64,000 nt of DNA, from contig NW_014575397.1 of NCBI RefSeq assembly GCF_000803265.1, positions 1 to 64,000 on the forward strand, in the 5' to 3' direction. Numbering within the stretch: the first letter of the stretch is position 1; every line of letters begins with the position of its first letter. Origin of the DNA: Ordospora colligata OC4. Taxonomy: Eukaryota; Microsporidia; Ordosporidae. Both the position numbers and the translations under genes were made by a program. Below are positions 22,839 through 33,301 of the stretch, one piece after another. Below the pieces are notes generated by a model. The model saw only the letters and a program-made list of their open reading frames with translations, ran no database searches and was not told where the DNA came from.

Positions 22839-24509
22839 CTACTTCTTGTTTTTAATGCTCCTATTTGTAAAATAATCGTCTAGCACGTTTTCTTCCACAA
22901 GGTTTCTGTCTCTTAACATCAAGACTTTGCCATGCAGCATTTCCAAATTAAATGGAGGATGAGCAAACAAATTGGCTACAAGTCTTATAAATGTAACTGC
23001 CTCCTTCCTATCTCTAGGATCAAGCATAAACAAAAATGACATATCAAATACACATCCATGTGCCTCAAAGTATCTGATTAAGTCAAGAGCCATAAACATA
23101 GATCCCTCATTCATCAAGTGTTTAAGTTCACTTTCAAGATCTTCACTATCATTGCGAAAAACATTCTCAATACATTTATTAATGCAAGGATATTCATGTC
23201 TTGTTTCTTGTGTGATCCTGTCTAGCATCGTCTTGATTCCTTTTTTGTTGATCGAGTCATAAATACGAAATTTTCCTTTTGGTGCAAAATTCTTCTTGAT
23301 AAAGTCAACAATCTCGTCTTTAAACTCGTCTCTGAGTCCGTACTTCCTCAAGAATCTTTCTGCTACCTCATAAGTATTCTCGTCATTGTTAAACGATAAT
23401 GTGTAATATTTGTTGTCAAGTTCAACCCGAAACGTATTTTCATAATCATTCGATCCTTGCATACTTCCCATAAGTACCCATTCCCCATCAACTTCCTGGT
23501 ACACTTGTCCACTAACTGTCTTGAACTTCTGGCCGTTCGAAACAAACTCTCTGTCTTCACCAACTACTCGTATTCCCTGTTCTATCTCTACCAATTCCTT
23601 TATTACATCATCTGATACATTCTTAGAGTATGTATAGATCCTTCCATCATTACACCCAACATATACTTTACTTCTGCTACTGCACATTGTCCAGCAAGAT
23701 ATAGCAGGAACACGAACATCCTGCAACATCTTCAAATCTGTGTCAAAAAACATCATCTTCCCATTCTCTCCACAACATGCAACCATTTGCTTCCCATCAA
23801 CTTCACAAAGACTCAAGTGATATCCGAACTCATTCAAAGACTGATGCTTTAGCAAAATACCATCCAACGATATCTTCAATACTATTCCTTCATTATCAAT
23901 TGAAAAAATACATTTATCAAAAACAGCTAAACTTCTAACACAGGACATATGATATCCAAGTGTACTTACCAACACACCATCTTCATAAATCCTCAAGAGG
24001 TTGTCTGCGCATCCTGTAATATACATATTTTTCCTTACAAACTTTGCACTCCATACTGTCGCAGGATGCTGTATTCTCATTAAACATTCAGGATTGGCAT
24101 ATTCGCAATGACTCACATCCCAAATCGCCATAGTACAATCCCAGGAGCCTGACATCAAAAGTTCATCAGAAATATCAAGAGTACACACATTCATGCTATG
24201 TCCATCAATGTATCCAATAGGTTCTATACTTCCTTTTCCATCTGTACACGCATCAAAGTTCATACTGTAAATTGCAATTCTTCCATTCTGGCATCCTGCA
24301 AATAAACATTCACCTCTAATAGCAAGACAGTTTATATATCCACATCCAGGATCTCCCTCAAAAACAATAGGTTCAACATCAGTTTCACACGAGTTTAGAC
24401 GTATTCGTAACTTACCATCTCTTCCTCCAGTGACAAACACATCATCATTCATCACTACAGCCTTTATATCCATAGTGCTAATCTTTTTAATTCTTTCAAT
24501 TCCTAGCAT
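22839..24509 (-). CDS. DOA1: Doa1/Ufd3 (PLAA), Cdc48 ubiquitin cofactor
   Basis: Doa1 binds ubiquitin and Cdc48/p97 and controls ubiquitin recycling and degradation. Residues ~1-300 form a WD40 propeller (MSGSWDCTMAIWDV is the best blade). The PFU ubiquitin-binding domain follows, with SGQVYQEVDGEWVLMG, YENTFRVELDNKYYTLSFN and AERFLRKYGL. The C-terminal ~150 residues are a helical region where the PUL Cdc48-binding domain should be; it is shorter than usual (PUL ~260). The frame starts at an ATG at 24524, but a CCC lies between it and the second ATG at 24509, which is preferred. Confidence 0.87.
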   Translation of the reverse strand: MLGIERIKKISTMDIKAVVMNDDVFVTGGRDGKLRIRLNSCETDVEPIVFEGDPGCGYINCLAIRGECLFAGCQNGRIAIYSMNFDACTDGKGSIEPIGYIDGHSMNVCTLDISDELLMSGSWDCTMAIWDVSHCEYANPECLMRIQHPATVWSAKFVRKNMYITGCADNLLRIYEDGVLVSTLGYHMSCVRSLAVFDKCIFSIDNEGIVLKISLDGILLKHQSLNEFGYHLSLCEVDGKQMVACCGENGKMMFFDTDLKMLQDVRVPAISCWTMCSSRSKVYVGCNDGRIYTYSKNVSDDVIKELVEIEQGIRVVGEDREFVSNGQKFKTVSGQVYQEVDGEWVLMGSMQGSNDYENTFRVELDNKYYTLSFNNDENTYEVAERFLRKYGLRDEFKDEIVDFIKKNFAPKGKFRIYDSINKKGIKTMLDRITQETRHEYPCINKCIENVFRNDSEDLESELKHLMNEGSMFMALDLIRYFEAHGCVFDMSFLFMLDPRDRKEAVTFIRLVANLFAHPPFNLEMLHGKVLMLRDRNLVEENVLDDYFTNRSIKNKK

Positions 24510-24559
24510 TGAGTCAGGGTACATATATTCAAATTAACCTATGCAAAGCACATGCTGTA

Positions 24560-26095
24560 TCAATCAATTATTCCATGTTTAAGCTTCTGGCCATTGCTGT
24601 ATCCATAATCAAAGTACAGTTCCTGATGGATTCCTATGTCTTTAATCGCATAGAATCCAATCCTTCTTGATCCATTGACATTTATAGCTACCGCACGCAG
24701 ATTTGCATGCTTTACAGAGTGGTTGATGAACCTGGAGTTGTTTCCTATTGATTTTGAATCAATCGCATACTGAGACTTTCTATTCTTGATGCACAGGTCA
24801 AACAAATAAGAACATCCTTTGATATCATAGAACACACCTCGTCGCTCAGCCTCAGCATCACTTATTATTTCACCTGTGTATTCAATAACAAAACTTCCCT
24901 CTTCAATGCATTCTGCTGCAAACAACCCGCATCCAGCAACTTTGCTTGAAGAAACATAAGTCTTTGCTTTCAAGCCAAGTTGTATTGATTTATTGTCACA
25001 TCCGGTGCATTGGCATATAGGCGTGCACTCTCGCACTCCATTTGAACATTTACATACATCTCGACATCCATCAGTGCATGAACATCCCGTGAAAAAATTA
25101 CTGCATTCAACGCATAAACATGACATTTCGCAGTATGTTTTATTGATCAAACACGTACATCCGTTATTCTTGGAACACTTTCCTGCGTGGCTGCATGGCG
25201 TAAAGAATGCCTTTTTATCCATCTTTGTATAGTTATTGCGTGCATTGTTCTTAAAAATATGCTTTAAAGGCCATATACGTACCTGTGAATTATATGTACT
25301 GTTTATTTGACTGCAACACACATACTTTCCATGCTTAATGCAAAAAATCAACGATGTAATGCATGCATCACCCTTAGACTGGTTGTAAACAATTAACAAC
25401 CTGTTTTTTTCAGATGTACTCAAAGAGCTCATCTCTGGCACACGCCTTGCATAATGAGCATTCATTTTTGTACAAACATCACTGTGGCACACTTTTTCAG
25501 CCATGTATGCATTGTATGGATCCTTTTCAAAGCCCACAGGTTTTATGCAAATGCCATCTATGATTGCATGCCATCTACAACCGAATATAAGACATACACC
25601 ACAGAACTGCATTCTTATGTACTTAATAGAATTCAACGTTGACTTGGTGTCAGATTCAGTGTTATTTGTGGTCATTCTTGCCGATTCTTGATAACCATCG
25701 CAACTTTTGTTATCAAAGTCAGTACCTTTGTACTCTTTGACTATTACTGCTGAGAGTAAAGTGCTTGAAGTATACGGAATGTAGTGTAACACAGGATCAT
25801 CTTCACTTTGTATATTCACATCAGAATAAGTAAAATAAATACAGGATACGCCAGGATCTATCTTTGGGATTACAATCTTGTTGATTTGTGGACCGAAATA
25901 ATATACAGATGGAGTGTTGGACTGGCCTGCTTCACGCGTAAGGCTTGCTGAAATAGTGTTTTGATCGAAGTAATTTTCTGTGATTATGCTCTCAATATCC
26001 ACTCTGTGATTGCTGAATGGATTGTTAGACGAATGATCTTTGTCAGTAGTTGTGCTGAGTATTTTAGATTTGTTTGTATGTGTTTGAGAGCCCAT
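24560..26095 (-). CDS. EZH: Enhancer of zeste-type H3K27 methyltransferase (PRC2)
   Basis: A SET-domain methyltransferase of the E(z)/EZH2 type. Domains in order: a MCSS-like cysteine block at ~165-210 (FCGVCLIFGCRWH ... CHSDVC); a SANT-like stretch at ~228-272; the CXC pre-SET domain at ~300-365 with eighteen or so cysteines (CSCTDGCRDVCKC); and the SET domain at ~375-505 with IEYTGEIIS, RFINHSV and YFDYGYS, the cofactor and catalytic motifs. The CXC-SET pair with no post-SET cysteines is specific to E(z). It is expected to methylate H3K27 with EED and Su(z)12. EED lies 0.6 kb away. The start overlaps an opposite-strand start in the palindrome CATG. Confidence 0.9.
   Translation of the reverse strand: MGSQTHTNKSKILSTTTDKDHSSNNPFSNHRVDIESIITENYFDQNTISASLTREAGQSNTPSVYYFGPQINKIVIPKIDPGVSCIYFTYSDVNIQSEDDPVLHYIPYTSSTLLSAVIVKEYKGTDFDNKSCDGYQESARMTTNNTESDTKSTLNSIKYIRMQFCGVCLIFGCRWHAIIDGICIKPVGFEKDPYNAYMAEKVCHSDVCTKMNAHYARRVPEMSSLSTSEKNRLLIVYNQSKGDACITSLIFCIKHGKYVCCSQINSTYNSQVRIWPLKHIFKNNARNNYTKMDKKAFFTPCSHAGKCSKNNGCTCLINKTYCEMSCLCVECSNFFTGCSCTDGCRDVCKCSNGVRECTPICQCTGCDNKSIQLGLKAKTYVSSSKVAGCGLFAAECIEEGSFVIEYTGEIISDAEAERRGVFYDIKGCSYLFDLCIKNRKSQYAIDSKSIGNNSRFINHSVKHANLRAVAINVNGSRRIGFYAIKDIGIHQELYFDYGYSNGQKLKHGIID
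26091..26093 (+). promoter_or_regulatory. CCC signal at a shared divergent start
   Basis: CCC directly precedes the plus-strand ATG at 26094. That ATG overlaps the minus-strand E(z) ATG (26093-26095) in CATG. Two divergent genes would thus share their start codons, leaving no room for separate upstream regions. Confidence 0.4.
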
Positions 26096-26234
26096 GCGAG
26101 AACGAAAGTATCAGATCTTTGAAAAGGGATTTATTGACTCATTTGTTGACGATGAGGTCATAAATTGGATGTTTGATCCAATGTTACACAGGGAAGTATT
26201 TGATGGGGCGTGTCATTTATACCTGAATCCATAA
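26094..26234 (+). CDS. Candidate micro-protein, 46 residues
   Basis: An ORF of 46 codons starts CCC-ATG (MRERKYQIFEKG...) and ends in TAA 22 bp before the Med7 start. Its codon use resembles that of neighbouring genes and it is rich in F, D and E with one W. No family is recognised. It overlaps the E(z) start codon by two bases on the opposite strand. The abutting CCC, the same as for med7, supports it as real. An alternative is a 5' leader ORF of med7. Confidence 0.45.
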   Translation: MRERKYQIFEKGFIDSFVDDEVINWMFDPMLHREVFDGACHLYLNP

Positions 26235-26256
26235 CATGGACCTGATTTGAATACCC

Positions 26257-26652
26257 ATGCAGATATTTTCATGGCCAGCGCCTCCAATCATAGGCATGGG
26301 CATACCTCCGGAAATACCTTGTGAATACACAAGCTTTGGAATAGAGTACAGTGTAGTTGGAGGATCGCCTGTTTCGACTTCATTTGAGCGTTCAAAATTT
26401 GACATGGATAAACTTAGGATGCTAGTTGATCTATCATTCTCCACCTTTGCTGAGCTAATAGCATGCCCATTCGATGCAAATGAGCTTGTTGATAACATAA
26501 AATCGATTCATATTGAGATCAACCAGATACTGAATGGATCTAAAAAAACAGAAGCGATTGGCGAAATGCTGAGGATCCGGAATCAACATGTAAAGAACAG
26601 AAACATGCTTGCTGAGGATGTTAAGAGGCAAATATCCAATTTTGAGATATGA
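26257..26652 (+). CDS. MED7: Mediator subunit Med7
   Basis: Med7 belongs to the middle module of Mediator, which links activators to RNA polymerase II. The N-terminus is Pro-rich with WPAPP and IPPEIP, as in the family 'FPPPP' start. An LDxxxD-like linker follows, then a helix with LVDNIKSIHIEINQILNG and AIGEMLRIRNQHV, which matches the conserved hinge and coiled coil. At 131 residues it is shorter than yeast (222). CCC abuts the ATG. The 3' end is convergent with eed, 60 bp away. Confidence 0.82.
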   Translation: MQIFSWPAPPIIGMGIPPEIPCEYTSFGIEYSVVGGSPVSTSFERSKFDMDKLRMLVDLSFSTFAELIACPFDANELVDNIKSIHIEINQILNGSKKTEAIGEMLRIRNQHVKNRNMLAEDVKRQISNFEI

Positions 26653-26712
26653 ATATTTATTTGTGATTTATAATGTCGGTAACTAAATTACATACAATAC
26701 CTAAATAGGAGT

Positions 26713-27663
26713 TTACACATATCTTGAAAGATCAATAGCAGTGACTGATGAGCCATCAAACAGAATAAACATTCTATTATTTGCAATACAGAAGTCTTTT
26801 ATGGTACCTTGAGTGAATGTGCTGACCACTTTTGGAATAGCATGTGGGCCTGTGATTTGCATACTAAACGCAAGGATTTGTTTTGAAGCAGTGATTGTAA
26901 AAAGCATGCCATTGTGTATTTTAAATCCTCGTAGGATTTGATCATCAACTTTGATATCATAGGTAGATGTAGTATGTACATGTGGATTACTTTCATCATG
27001 TCCGTGTGTTGGAAGAATGGTTGAAATTATGTTTGGTGCTGAACAAAAAACAATCAAGCGACCGTAGAACCTTACACATGAGATAAAAGAACCATGAGTG
27101 TTATGAATTGTACATAAGGGCGTGATCAGGCCTTTACAATCATAATGCGGAGGGATTCTCCAGATTCTAATTGTGCAATCTGTACCAGCAGATACCAAGT
27201 ACTGTATGTCAGCACTTACATCAATAGATAGCACATAGTCTTTGTGACCCATGTATCCACCAAAAGTGCATATAAGGTTCAATTTGTTTATGTCCCACAT
27301 TTTTATGGTTGTGTCTTCACTACAGCTGAATAGATACTGATTTCTGATGCATTTGATCGAGACTATTGATGCACCATGGGCATTAATGTGTGATTCAAAT
27401 GTGCCTTCTGATAGGTTCAGGAATTTTATAATACCTAGTTTTCCAGCAATTGCCAAGAAGAGTTGTTTCTTGAACACAAGGAACTCGCAGCATATGAAAC
27501 TTTCATTTGGATGCTCATCAATGATTCTTTGAACTGCATTCAACCTGGTATCGTATGAAATAACGACTGCAGTGCGACTGCCTATCAAGGAGATCATATT
27601 ACAAGAGCCATGGATGCACATAGATATGAACCTTGCATTTGGGACTGAGAATGTTGATTGCAT
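26713..27663 (-). CDS. EED: EED/ESC-type WD40 subunit of PRC2
   Basis: A seven-bladed WD40 protein of 316 residues. The EED hallmarks are present: LFLAIAGKLGIIKFLNL (as 'LAVAGSRGIIRIINP'), then HGASIVSIKCI, SEDTTIKMWDI, CTFGGYMGHKDYVLSIDVS (as 'IFGGVEGHRDEVLSADYD') and GTDCTIRIWRI. EED binds the N-terminus of E(z) and reads H3K27me3, and is required for PRC2 activity. The match to EED is much better than to general WD40 proteins. CCC abuts the ATG. A tRNA gene lies 73 bp away. Confidence 0.85.
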   Translation of the reverse strand: MQSTFSVPNARFISMCIHGSCNMISLIGSRTAVVISYDTRLNAVQRIIDEHPNESFICCEFLVFKKQLFLAIAGKLGIIKFLNLSEGTFESHINAHGASIVSIKCIRNQYLFSCSEDTTIKMWDINKLNLICTFGGYMGHKDYVLSIDVSADIQYLVSAGTDCTIRIWRIPPHYDCKGLITPLCTIHNTHGSFISCVRFYGRLIVFCSAPNIISTILPTHGHDESNPHVHTTSTYDIKVDDQILRGFKIHNGMLFTITASKQILAFSMQITGPHAIPKVVSTFTQGTIKDFCIANNRMFILFDGSSVTAIDLSRYV

Positions 27664-27996: not shown

Positions 27997-30099
27997 TTAA
28001 TCTTCATCAGGTACCATGTTGAACCCAAGAGGCTCAAACAAATATCCCTTTCCACGGAAAAACTTTGAATGGAATTCAATCCAGTTCAATCGCATCGCAT
28101 GAAGACAAGATCCAAGACCCTCCATTCCAATCAATAATATAATCGTTCCCAATGCATATACTCCAGAAAGCATAACAGGTATTATAAATCCTCCGCGTCC
28201 TATTGTAAACTCATGCAGCACTCTTGTAAGCTGTGCGTGTGCTAAAGAAACCGCCCACAACCGTAAATACGAAGACGTGTTCGATATGAGTCCAAGTCCA
28301 AACTCAACGACATGTATAAACTGATTGATCCACAATCCTGAAATTTCATCCTTCTTCACCATCTTTTTTGCAATCATGTATATAGGTTTTCCAACAAGCA
28401 TCCATGGCACCGACACCAGCATTAAAATTAGTAGAATCAATTGGACCTGCTGTTGATACGGATACATCTCTTCAGCAACCACAAATGGATTCGTAAACAT
28501 ATTCACCAAAACTCCAATTATCGATGGATAGTTGGACGTCACTAGCCATTTGTAAATAATCAGAAACACCATATAACCTGCAAACGAAAAAAACACAATT
28601 GTCTGTGGCACTAACACACCATATATCTCAACAGGCTCTTTCAGGTACACTGCATTCATAAATGATATCACCACTCCAAGGCTCATGTGGAAAAATCCAA
28701 TTATTATCGACATCTTCATCTTCATCGAATTCAAGAAAACCATCTCATTCTTCGAATGATGCCACATATGATCTACGCCAAACGGATAGGTTCTTCCAGT
28801 ATCCTTACTTGATAAAAACAACGGAATCGCTAAAGAAGCAAAATCAGAGTATAGAAACCCAAAGAACATTGCTCCAAGAGAGAACAAAAATATCACATAC
28901 TTCCCATCCATTATCATTTTCATTGTCTCAGAAACATTCTTGAACTTCTTGGCATTTCTTATCATAAATGTAGACAAAAGTAACAGTATTAAGCCATGGA
29001 ATACATCCCCAAACATACATCCAAAAAGCATAGGAAACGTAAACAGAGTAAAAACCGCTGGATTCACCTCGCCATATGAAGGAACTGCATATGTATTAGT
29101 CAGTGCCTGGAACGAATCTGTAAACTCATTAGTCTTGAAATATGTCGGAGGCATCTCTACACTCTCATTCACTTCAAAGGCAAACAGATTCGTGCCTTCT
29201 CCTTTGAATTCTCCAATCTTCTTAAGCCTTCCGATCGCATCTGATGGAATCCATGCTTCACCAATCAGGCAGTCCCTGTCAAAGTCAAAATTAAGCTTAT
29301 TAAGTGTTTGATATATTTTCATCTCCTTGTTCATGTAATACCTCCATGTGTTTGCAAGCTGTTTTATCTTCTCTTGTTCATTCATGATTGCCTCTTCATT
29401 ATGGCTTTCAATTTGTTGCATTTGGCTTATTACTGCACTTAGTTCCAGCAATCCTTTCTTACATTCCCTAAACTTCTTGTGATCTAGTATTCTTCCACCC
29501 AACGATGAAAATATATCTTTGACTTTGTCAAGTGCCTCTGTTCCATGTGCAAATACAATAAACACACTCTTGCACTCCCCGTCAACATCCTTTGTTCTTA
29601 TTACCAGATTCCTTCTGAGTGCCTGATGCAATACCTTCCGTATTAAGAACTTCTTGCTCCTTTCAACTATTCCTGTTATAAAATCAAACTGAATCAAATG
29701 TGTTTCCTCAGTGACCGTCCCAACAAAGCTCTCTGTCTCCTCAAGCATGTACAAATCCTCTCTAAGCTTTGCATTGTTTGTAATTGTTTCTCTCTTCATT
29801 GTCTTCAACTGGATTAGTCTTGAGAAAAATTTGTTGATTTGTTGCTCAACCTGATCCACATCGCTGTGCTTGATATTTTCTTCTATGTCTGGAATGTCTG
29901 CCGTTAAATACCTCAGTCTTGATACCAGCTTTTCCATGTGGTTGATTTCACGGATGTACAGCAGCTTTTCTGCCTTCATGTCCACATTCAAGTCCTTAAA
30001 ATGCAACAGCTCATTTTTCCCAAGTTCTGTTACTGCCTGCTTTGCAGTGTCTTTGCTAAAATAGATTGATACCAACGTCATTTCTTCGCTCCTCAACAT
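27997..30099 (-). CDS. VPH1: V-ATPase V0 subunit a
   Basis: Subunit a carries protons across the membrane sector of the vacuolar ATPase. It starts MLRSEEMTLVSIYFSKD, as the family does. The N-terminal ~350 residues are cytosolic with coiled-coil stretches. The C-terminal half has about eight membrane helices, including SSYLRLWAVSLAHAQL, which contains the essential Arg of the proton path. At 700 residues it is trimmed from ~840. The frame is open to 30198 but the family start is at 30099. There is one copy in this window. Confidence 0.95.
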   Translation of the reverse strand: MLRSEEMTLVSIYFSKDTAKQAVTELGKNELLHFKDLNVDMKAEKLLYIREINHMEKLVSRLRYLTADIPDIEENIKHSDVDQVEQQINKFFSRLIQLKTMKRETITNNAKLREDLYMLEETESFVGTVTEETHLIQFDFITGIVERSKKFLIRKVLHQALRRNLVIRTKDVDGECKSVFIVFAHGTEALDKVKDIFSSLGGRILDHKKFRECKKGLLELSAVISQMQQIESHNEEAIMNEQEKIKQLANTWRYYMNKEMKIYQTLNKLNFDFDRDCLIGEAWIPSDAIGRLKKIGEFKGEGTNLFAFEVNESVEMPPTYFKTNEFTDSFQALTNTYAVPSYGEVNPAVFTLFTFPMLFGCMFGDVFHGLILLLLSTFMIRNAKKFKNVSETMKMIMDGKYVIFLFSLGAMFFGFLYSDFASLAIPLFLSSKDTGRTYPFGVDHMWHHSKNEMVFLNSMKMKMSIIIGFFHMSLGVVISFMNAVYLKEPVEIYGVLVPQTIVFFSFAGYMVFLIIYKWLVTSNYPSIIGVLVNMFTNPFVVAEEMYPYQQQVQLILLILMLVSVPWMLVGKPIYMIAKKMVKKDEISGLWINQFIHVVEFGLGLISNTSSYLRLWAVSLAHAQLTRVLHEFTIGRGGFIIPVMLSGVYALGTIILLIGMEGLGSCLHAMRLNWIEFHSKFFRGKGYLFEPLGFNMVPDED

Positions 30100-30343
30100 G
30101 AATATATTTGTTTTTGATTGCCTTGGCGATATGCAGGGATTGCTTTTGTTTACTTGTTTCAGACTGCAGGCATTTGTTAAGGGACTTCGAATCAGCATGC
30201 CAGGACTCCCTTGTTATTAAAAGGAGGCTTTAGAATAGAAGCAAACCATATACAAGTATTTACTATGTAGAATAGGAGAAGCCATGTTGAGCAGACTCAA
30301 TTGATCTGTGTACACATGCAATTGGAGTACCCTTGCTATCCAA

Positions 30344-33301
30344 ATGAGGAAAGAACCTTCAGTAGGATGGAAAGATACTAGGCGAAGCAGTAAGAAAGGT
30401 GCAGCACTCAACATGATCGACAGACAGAATGTTTCGAACATAGAGTTCTGGAACACAGAGAGTAGAAATCCTTTGCATTCTGAAAACAGCAGCGGAGGAT
30501 CTGACATAGATATGTTTTTTACATCCACTGAGCACGTTGATGCTGCTAGTCAAGTAGATCCGCAGGTATATTCCAAATTTGTGGTGAAAAAAATTGAAAG
30601 AAGCGATTCTTCTGTTGTACTGATTGGAGACACAATTGAGTGCCATGTATCTGGAGAATGGTGCGATATTGATTACAGAGTCAACATGAAGATTACTGTT
30701 GTGAGGTGTATGTGTTGTGATCATCAAGAAGATGCGTCTAGCATTGACTTTGTTGACGAGATTTTTGACTCAGACAGAGATGACGAATACTCTTTAAATA
30801 GGAGTTCTAATGAAAGTGGCAAGGCTTATATAGATACAAGCAATACTGATCAAAATGTTTGTGTAGATTCACATATAATTCCAGCAGATTATCTAAATAA
30901 AGAGTCAAGGAAGCAGAAAGTATATGTGAATAACCATGAAAACTATCTTCTAATAGAAGACGATCCTATTTCTATTACGACGCTATGCGAATCACTTAAT
31001 TGCAGAAATAAGCATTATCTGAGCAGTAAGGTTGCATCCGTACGATTCACACATGTCAACCTTAGAATACTGATAGGGGTAATAGCACACTCAGTCCTGC
31101 AGAATGCATTGATTTATAAAAACTTTAGATCGGACTTTCTGATAATGCAAGCAAAGAAGGCGGTTTCTGAGAATGTGTTATTGATGCACAGATGTGGAGT
31201 GCATGAAAAACTCGTGCTTAATGAAATACTGAAGCTTGTGCGAAATATACAACATTTTCAAGGTTACAAGATTGATATTGTGGAGACAGAAAAGAAGCTA
31301 ACGTCGCTTCTGTTTAGCATAAAAGGGAATGCGGATGCAATTGGACGTGATGCTGTTCTTGAGATAAAAGTATCAAAAGCGTTGAGAGCAGAAAATCGTG
31401 CACAGGTGATACTTTACTCATTAATGCTAAGTGAGAAGACAGGAAATAGCTTTGCACCTTATATCTACTACATTCCATCTAAAGAGCTTGTGGATGTAAA
31501 GATCAAGCACCGTGAGGTAAGAAGTCTGCTCAACATGAGGAATAGGATTTCTTTAGAGCGTGGCTTGCAGAAGTGTGTTTGTAATGATGAAGAGTGTAGA
31601 ATTCTTGGTGAGATAAGTGCTCTGGACGATTTACATTTTTTGAAAAGACAGTTGAATGCAATTGATGAGGAGGAATCAAAAAGCGTTGGGACAATGATTC
31701 CAATATCATTGAGATATCAGAGCACAACCATTGTAGGATTAGAAACCGAAGAAAGCTTTATAATTCCAAGATGCATCCACTTGAGCATATTCAGCAAGGA
31801 CATGGTTAGAATTTCAAGAGGAGTTGTGGAAGGAGTTGAAGGAAATAATATGCTTGTTAGACTAAGTGATGATATTAGACTAAACAAGGAGAAGATGTAT
31901 GCATCTTTTGGAGATACTAATGTGTTTTTTAAGTTTATGCGATTTTCTCTTATGCATGTTGCATATCCACGATATTGCACTTCTGAAGTATTGAATGGGT
32001 TTTGCCTTTCTATGGAGAAGTCAGGATTGGATATTAATGCAAGTAATATTATCGATTTTAGCATTAATGACAAATCCAATCGATGTCTTGATAAAGCTTA
32101 TAATGAAGATGTATCTGAGGAGTTTAATAGTTTTGCATTTTATTCAGAGGATGATGAAAAACAAAATGGTAAAATTGAAGCGGAAACCAATAGACAGGGC
32201 ATCTGTACTATTAGCATGGACATAGCTTCGTCTGCATATATTCAGACCAACATAAAAAAAATAGTCCATACAAACCACAAACAAGAGATGGTTTTTGAAG
32301 ATAGCCAGATCGACACTGAAAAGATATGCATACCTGAGAAATACAAGCATGAGTTTCTAAAGCTTAATGATGATCAGCGTTCTGCATTATTTCTTTCGTT
32401 GAATTGCAAAAACTATAGGATTATTCATGGGATGCCAGGAACAGGCAAGAGTATGCTGATAACCTTGATGATCAAAATACTTGTTCATTGTAAGAAGAAG
32501 GTTCTTCTTGTATGCTATACGAACCTTGCTCTGAGAAATATTGTAGAAAAACTAAAAGGAGTCAATGCATATATGGCAGGAAAGGAGGATATGCAGTTTG
32601 AAAATACAGACGATGCCAAGATGTTTTTTGATAATATAGAGCTTGTATGTGGAACTTGTTTTTCATTTTCCGACCCGGTCTATGTATGCAGGAAGTTTGA
32701 CTTCTGTGTGATTGATGAAGGCTCACAAATGCACTTACTTCTAGCGTTGATCCCTGTAAGCATATCTGAACGATTTGTGATAGTTGGCGACCATTTGCAG
32801 TTGAAACCTCTTTCCAAGAGTTCTAAGGAGCTTAGCCTGTCTCTTTTTGAATATCTGCTTGGTAATGAATACTCGAAGCTGAGAGTTCAGTATAGAATGG
32901 GTAAGGAAATAATGAGATTATCGAACACACTTTTCTATGGGAATCAACTACGTGGAGGAGAGCGTCCTTCGAGAGTAGAGTTTCTTAATACGGAGTATGT
33001 AGACATTGTAGTACTGGTTTCTTCGCTTTCGAAGTGCACAATTCTTTGCTACTTTAATGCGCAGGCTGATATGATCAGAAAGCACACATCTTGTACTGTT
33101 GAGACGGTTGATAGATTTCAAGGAAGTGAAGACGACAAGGTGGTTGTTGTTTTTGATCCTGTGTCCTGCTGTGAGGTAATGGAAAGCAGCGAACGGTTGA
33201 ATGTTGCACTTACAAGAGCAAAGAAGCATTTGGTTCTTGTGGGAAATAGAAGCAAAATGGCTGAAGTGGAGATACTCAAAAAATTACTCGACATCTTATG
33301 A
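30344..33301 (+). CDS. DNA2: Dna2 nuclease-helicase
   Basis: Dna2 trims long flaps in Okazaki fragments and resects DNA breaks. The nuclease domain (~250-430) has DAIGRDAVLEIKVSK (metal-binding D...EIK) and Fe-S cysteines, one before (HRCGVHE) and a cluster after (CVCNDEEC). The superfamily 1 helicase has GMPGTGKS (I), VIDEGSQ (II), VGDHLQLKPL (III), QYRM (IV), VDRFQGSEDD (V) and NVALTRAKKHL (VI). The N-terminal ~230 residues are poorly conserved. The frame opens with GTG at 30308; the first ATG is 30344, after a CCC. Length 985, normal for a compact form. Confidence 0.92.
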   Translation: MRKEPSVGWKDTRRSSKKGAALNMIDRQNVSNIEFWNTESRNPLHSENSSGGSDIDMFFTSTEHVDAASQVDPQVYSKFVVKKIERSDSSVVLIGDTIECHVSGEWCDIDYRVNMKITVVRCMCCDHQEDASSIDFVDEIFDSDRDDEYSLNRSSNESGKAYIDTSNTDQNVCVDSHIIPADYLNKESRKQKVYVNNHENYLLIEDDPISITTLCESLNCRNKHYLSSKVASVRFTHVNLRILIGVIAHSVLQNALIYKNFRSDFLIMQAKKAVSENVLLMHRCGVHEKLVLNEILKLVRNIQHFQGYKIDIVETEKKLTSLLFSIKGNADAIGRDAVLEIKVSKALRAENRAQVILYSLMLSEKTGNSFAPYIYYIPSKELVDVKIKHREVRSLLNMRNRISLERGLQKCVCNDEECRILGEISALDDLHFLKRQLNAIDEEESKSVGTMIPISLRYQSTTIVGLETEESFIIPRCIHLSIFSKDMVRISRGVVEGVEGNNMLVRLSDDIRLNKEKMYASFGDTNVFFKFMRFSLMHVAYPRYCTSEVLNGFCLSMEKSGLDINASNIIDFSINDKSNRCLDKAYNEDVSEEFNSFAFYSEDDEKQNGKIEAETNRQGICTISMDIASSAYIQTNIKKIVHTNHKQEMVFEDSQIDTEKICIPEKYKHEFLKLNDDQRSALFLSLNCKNYRIIHGMPGTGKSMLITLMIKILVHCKKKVLLVCYTNLALRNIVEKLKGVNAYMAGKEDMQFENTDDAKMFFDNIELVCGTCFSFSDPVYVCRKFDFCVIDEGSQMHLLLALIPVSISERFVIVGDHLQLKPLSKSSKELSLSLFEYLLGNEYSKLRVQYRMGKEIMRLSNTLFYGNQLRGGERPSRVEFLNTEYVDIVVLVSSLSKCTILCYFNAQADMIRKHTSCTVETVDRFQGSEDDKVVVVFDPVSCCEVMESSERLNVALTRAKKHLVLVGNRSKMAEVEILKKLLDIL

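Follow-up and report, generated by a model that had tools for sequence, protein, structure and literature searches.

Across 283 species, E(z) and ESC were commonly present and were read as the functional core of Polycomb repressive complex 2 (PRC2) (PMC9018016), and published complexes hide or lack Su(z)12 (PMC9018016, PMC8788455). In microsporidia, E(z)-group genes are already in print, with SET2 in one species, Mitosporidium (PMC9692433), and a telomere-to-telomere study of Encephalitozoon described one "Clr4/EZH2" protein per genome in three genomes and treated it as Clr4 (PMC10158259). The main text of that study makes no mention of EED, Polycomb, PRC2, or H3K27. Here we analyzed a stretch of 64,000 nucleotides (the window) on contig C11 of Ordospora colligata OC4, the assembly of which comprises 2.28 Mb in 13 contigs. 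An earlier note on this DNA had proposed that the window holds a PRC2 core, E(z) and EED, and this was borne out by profile, structural, tree, and hhalign comparisons. The note's further statement that PRC2 had not been worked out in microsporidia was true only in part: no title on PRC2 of microsporidia was among the matches listed from the open-access literature, but the E(z) group was in print, as mentioned above, and database records already carried the names EZH2 (the E. hellem orthologue) and "polycomb protein EED" (one EED orthologue).

The E(z) and EED open reading frames (ORFs) were uninterrupted and of full length (Table 1), and the E(z) protein was identical to the record "putative methyl transferase [Ordospora colligata]." Pfam SET matched this protein at 74.8 bits (cut-off of 22.4 bits), and no Pfam pre-SET match was obtained at an E value of ≤10. 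A search of solved structures with the single sequence placed EZH2 at the top (E value of 2e-36) and Clr4-type enzymes next (E value of 3e-22). With a 22-row profile, EZH2 scored 250 bits over nearly the whole length in one collinear stretch, which began ahead of the EDETVLHNIPY segment and took in the MCSS, the SANT2 stretch, the CXC, and finally the SET domain, whereas the first family other than E(z), SUV39H2, scored 132 bits at the SET end alone. The underlying alignment, A1, contained 22 of the 23 microsporidian-like matches (P0001 to P0023), with P0012 left out and P0025 not included. The "microsporidian" label was assigned by similarity for 13 of these 23 matches and for 8 of the 12 EED matches used below. 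One E(z) match, P0010, comes from a record of the louse Menopon gallinae that is flagged UNVERIFIED_CONTAM, with a longest contig of 1.9 Mb, and is a microsporidian-like E(z) carried in an insect entry.

A tree of the SET domain was also examined. It covered all 46 E(z) search matches, with SUV39 and SET2/ASH1 types included and SET1/MLL rows absent, and its E(z) rows were labeled independently of the tree by the MCSS motif or by Pfam PF18264, which we take to be the CXC pre-SET family. The 23 microsporidian-like rows and P0025 joined the 11 E(z) rows with support of 97/94, grouping the SET domain with E(z) and not with SUV39 or SET2/ASH1. Forcing these rows together with SUV39 cost 31 log units (p-AU, from the approximately unbiased test, of 0.00113), and the protein stayed in the E(z) clade. 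The unlabeled row P0035 was placed on the SUV39/AWS side. A Clr4/SUV39 identity of the SET protein was ruled out by the profile scores and the tree, and its membership in the E(z)/EZH2 (KMT6) family is well supported by these comparisons. The "Clr4/EZH2" protein of Encephalitozoon (PMC10158259) is probably an orthologue of it.

The residues expected of an active enzyme were conserved. The columns of EZH2 Y641, F667, N688, H689, F724, and Y726 held the EZH2 residue in 22/22 rows; N688 and H689 are catalytic residues, and the Y641 column, fixed by counting back from N688, is the tyrosine of EYTGE. Residues Y641, F667, F724, and Y726 are those named as lining the lysine channel (PMC6586856). The CxxCx4CxxH ligands of the MCSS were found in all 20 rows reaching that region, the remaining 2 of the 22 rows being gapped there, and the Pfam fungal Ezh2 CXC family matched at 19.3 bits, under its cut-off of 27 bits. 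The claim that E(z) keeps its MCSS, SANT, CXC, and SET regions with intact catalytic motifs was thus upheld except in one respect: the SANT stretch was recognized by profile alignment to EZH2 alone, and no SANT family was among the 8 Pfam families matching the protein at an E value of ≤1. In EZH2, the segment containing VLxxIP, presumably that named SAL/SRM, is thought to respond to EED; the proline of this motif was kept in 19 of the 20 rows having a residue there. A possible EED-binding helix was picked out by eye from a weak likeness to an EZH2 helix (Table 1).

The WD40 protein was examined in the same way. Among solved structures, human EED was the best natural chain for the EED profile (146 bits, in a single stretch). 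Designed repeat propellers and repetitive WD40 chains outscored it by summing repeats, one repeat being counted many times; a generic WD40 identity was nevertheless rejected. hhalign of the window EED family against human EED gave a probability of 99.9 over 294 columns. In the structural search, the first 41 of the best 50 rows were EED chains, with a margin over other WD40 folds of 3 to 4 Z for animal EED and <1 Z for Chaetomium EED. The protein did not, therefore, fall outside EED, and its assignment as an EED orthologue is well supported by these matches. In alignment A2, which joins 12 of 14 matches to the window protein (the distant P0059 and P0060 were left out), the FGG-x-x-GH block was invariant in 13/13 rows, confirming that this blade is kept. 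Orthologues of both E(z) and EED are present in other microsporidia, and because of these orthologues and the scores, a chance explanation of the matches is excluded. The longest contigs given for the E(z) and EED orthologues agree in length in E. intestinalis (268753) and in E. romaleae (68163), as would be expected if both genes share a contig in each species, but not in E. hellem (262033 and 258950); none of the EED rows carries the name O. pajunii.

The aromatic cage of EED, which we take to consist of F97, Y148, W364, and Y365 in human numbering, gave a different picture. The Y148 column, in a gap-free, well-aligned block, contained I5 Q3 T3 E1 R1 and was thus aromatic in 0/13 rows. The F97 column, set by eye, contained F6 L7, and hhalign placed that residue at human position 101. 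The two columns assigned to W364/Y365 held no aromatic residue in the 13 rows, but their placement is uncertain, as they lie in a gapped stretch where a neighboring column is F in 10/13. Judged on Y148, the cage for reading H3K27me3 appears to be missing, and the read-out of this mark by EED, the basis of its self-copying, has probably been lost. The VLxxIP segment is retained despite the loss of this cage residue.

These columns bear on the canonical, heritable form of PRC2, in which E(z) writes H3K27me3 and the EED cage reads it and stimulates E(z), such that the mark copies itself. The presence of both subunits fits this scheme, and the conserved VLxxIP proline points to partial survival of the activation path. 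However, the Y148 column makes copying through EED doubtful, the columns taken for W364/Y365 point the same way within the limits of their gaps, and one of the two histone H3 genes of the assembly has no K27. We therefore regard the canonical scheme as quite unlikely. For these reasons, and because HP1 occurs without a detectable SUV39, the heritable H3K27 methylation that had been suggested for this locus, with a putative role in silencing host-exposed or subtelomeric genes, was not well supported.

The whole assembly was searched for other histone-methylation machinery. PF00856 detected one SET domain, that of E(z), both at an E value of ≤0.001 and at an E value of ≤10. A SUV39H2-like query, followed up to an E value of 10, returned the E(z) SET domain and an HP1 chromodomain and nothing else, and no SUV39-type enzyme was detected by this query or by the Pfam SET search. 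In the HP1 protein, on contig C3, a chromodomain (67.5 bits) is combined with a chromoshadow domain (40.6 bits); the former resembles HP1 (61 bits) more closely than Polycomb (39 bits). It has 206 amino acids (aa) in Ordospora and 155 to 156 aa in two named Encephalitozoon species, its hinge probably being longer in Ordospora. The second and last chromodomain protein found in the assembly is one that we read as a CHD-type helicase. An RBBP4/NURF55-type protein is also encoded. DOT1 gave one weak match (18.2 bits against a cut-off of 23 bits), and no BAH or JmjC candidate was found in the assembly by searches whose controls were prokaryotic and responded weakly, below the cut-off only.

Since HP1 is retained and no SUV39 was detected, the E(z) enzyme may possibly serve H3K9 as well. 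Carried further, the enzyme could be E(z) by descent and an H3K9 enzyme in effect, filling the role of Clr4 in H3K9me3/HP1 heterochromatin and having little H3K27 activity. The HP1-like chromodomain and the lack of a SUV39 match are consistent with such a role, Ezl1 of Paramecium methylates both K9 and K27 (PMC6586856), and H3K9me3 heterochromatin was judged likely in Encephalitozoon (PMC10158259). On the other hand, profile and tree place the enzyme in E(z) and not in SUV39/Clr4, the gene of a PRC2 subunit, EED, is nearby, and K27 is kept in its ARK context in one H3. An enzyme devoted largely to H3K9 thus appears unlikely.

The assembly contains two H3 genes, L003 and L002, on contigs C3 and C4. 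The stand-alone gene, L003, keeps K4, K9, and K27, with the contexts QSARKT and KSARKA. In L002, which lies divergent from an H4-like gene (L007), the corresponding sequence is MSRTKQTASKALGGKAPRKGLAMKSVPSSSG, with K9 lacking R8 and K27 absent. L003 matched ordinary H3 at 168 bits and L002 at 140 bits. For the core region, compared with manually entered H3.1 and CENP-A reference sequences, the identity of L003 was 51/88 to H3.1 versus 45/90 to CENP-A, and that of L002 was 49/87 versus 52/90, slightly nearer to CENP-A. The loop that is lengthened in CENP-A carries two additional residues in L003. Which of the two genes encodes the bulk H3 determines how much K27 is available.

From gene order, the stand-alone H3 of Encephalitozoon has been postulated to be CENP-A (PMC10158259). 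The retention of K4, K9, and K27 in L003 and the loss of K27 and R8 in L002 sit badly with that argument. In another scheme, PRC2 might act on the K27-bearing stand-alone H3 only, and nucleosomes containing the H4-linked H3 would escape; were the postulate correct, the mark would be centromeric. That K27 and the R8-K9 context occur in L003 and not in L002, and that L003 is extended at the CENP-A loop, would agree with this. We nevertheless find it improbable, as both the H3 match scores and the core identities draw L003 toward ordinary H3 and the core identities draw L002 toward CENP-A, and one would not expect CENP-A to have a near-complete H3 tail.

Taken together, these results make it on balance probable that a reduced PRC2 is the sole SET-type histone writer found in O. 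colligata, with HP1 as the likely reader. We propose that EED would bind E(z) and keep its SET domain active and that the complex would methylate the H3 tail, most likely at K27 and possibly at K9 as well. Because no SET-type histone methyltransferase other than E(z) was found in the assembly, the mark read by HP1 would most likely be made by E(z)-EED. HP1, and not the EED cage, would then hold silent chromatin together, plausibly at the ribosomal DNA (rDNA) and the chromosome ends. Several points weigh against this proposal. The SET searches score only first-pass sequences, and a very diverged SET domain could escape them; PF09733 and a human VEFS piece each gave 0 Su(z)12/VEFS candidates in the assembly, in searches where no positive control rang; the H4-linked H3 lacks K27; and the predicted structure of E(z) was poor, with a predicted local distance difference test (pLDDT) score of 57.7. 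HP1 might also work without any methyl mark, for which there is a precedent in Microsporidia sp. MB, where Swi6 is kept and Clr4 was not among the components found (PMC13174016). A more far-reaching form of the proposal, to be entertained tentatively, is that one E(z)-EED enzyme replaced the whole SET set and writes both H3K27 and H3K9 on the H3 that has both sites, the loop passing via HP1 and not EED.

The features of the locus are listed in Table 1. The two genes had been described as separated by Med7 and a micro-ORF. Both ORFs are indeed there, the micro-ORF listed being most likely the one meant, but Med7 was matched only below its threshold; the Med7-like gene is no PRC2 component. Adjoining E(z), an ORF at 22839-24524 (-) encodes WD40 and PFU domains, with PUL under its cut-off, and is presumably Doa1/PLAA-like. 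Beyond EED lie genes for a V-ATPase 116-kDa subunit at 27997-30198 (-) and a Dna2-like helicase at 30344-33301 (+).

Table 1. Features of the E(z)-EED locus in window coordinates, with the HP1 gene found elsewhere in the assembly
Feature	Position	Strand	Remarks
E(z)/EZH2-type SET methyltransferase	24560..26095	-	511 aa; profile, structure, and tree matches
SET domain, residues 388-498	24602..24934	-	Catalytic residues intact
CXC cysteine-rich pre-SET region, approximately residues 301-366	24998..25195	-	Invariant cysteines; aligned to EZH2 CXC
MCSS zinc-binding motif, C165xxC168x4C173xxH176	25568..25603	-	Aligned to EZH2 FCRRCFKYDCFLH
EDDPVLHYIPY, aligned to EZH2 EDETVLHNIPY	25772..25804	-	Structure search and profile
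Possible EED-binding helix, residues 27-41	25973..26017	-	Like EZH2 helix FSSNRQKILERTEILN; by eye, weak
Micro-ORF	26094..26234	+	46 aa; no Pfam match; starts beside E(z) start
Putative Med7, between E(z) and EED	26257..26652	+	131 aa; Pfam 20.9 bits, cut-off 25.8 bits
EED orthologue, WD40 propeller	26713..27663	-	316 aa; profile, structural, and hhalign matches
Second EED block, IHNTHGSFISCVRFYGRLIVFCS	27040..27108	-	Aligned to human EED by hhalign
EED signature block, FGGYMGHKDYVLS	27226..27264	-	FGG-x-x-GH
EED residue 57 (Ile) codon	27493..27495	-	Aligned to human EED cage residue Y148
HP1, "chromatin organization modifier protein"	L011:1045-1665 (contig C3, outside window)	-	206 aa; Pfam

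The picture that emerges is more interesting and less canonical than that of the earlier note, and we hold the proposed mechanism, read from sequence comparisons, with moderate confidence. If PRC2 and HP1 have been kept with no other detectable SET domain in a 2.28-Mb assembly, they would show which part of histone-methylation silencing is the hardest to lose. The loss of the EED cage, if true, would provide a natural PRC2 without product feedback. The published Clr4-type H3K9 reading of heterochromatin in the sister genus calls for correction.

Compared with the animal and fungal PRC2 core (EZH2/KMT6 and EED), the Ordospora pair is similar in the MCSS, CXC, and catalytic SET domain of E(z) and in the EED propeller with its FGG-GH and IH..CVRW blocks. 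It differs in that E(z) has 511 aa, compared with 746 aa in human EZH2, in that Y148 of EED is lost, and in that no VEFS protein was found in the assembly. The Ordospora E(z) also lacks a middle stretch that proteins such as that of Vavraia possess. The PRC2 of Cryptococcus neoformans offers a parallel, since it functions in the absence of Su(z)12 and relies on Ccc1, a separate protein with a chromodomain, to recognize H3K27me3 (PMC8788455). Ccc1, however, is described as a PRC2 subunit, whereas in Ordospora the chromodomain belongs to a true HP1, which has a chromoshadow domain too, and Cryptococcus additionally has the H3K9 enzyme Clr4 (PMC8788455). Ezl1 of Paramecium and Tetrahymena is likewise an E(z) of unicellular eukaryotes and can serve both H3K9 and H3K27 (PMC6586856, PMC8788455); the ciliate targets are transposable elements. 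Finally, the fission yeast Clr4/Swi6 system, as proposed for Encephalitozoon (PMC10158259), resembles that of Ordospora in the presence of HP1/Swi6. The SET enzyme of Ordospora, in contrast, is an E(z) and not a SUV39/Clr4 protein, and the gene for EED lies nearby.

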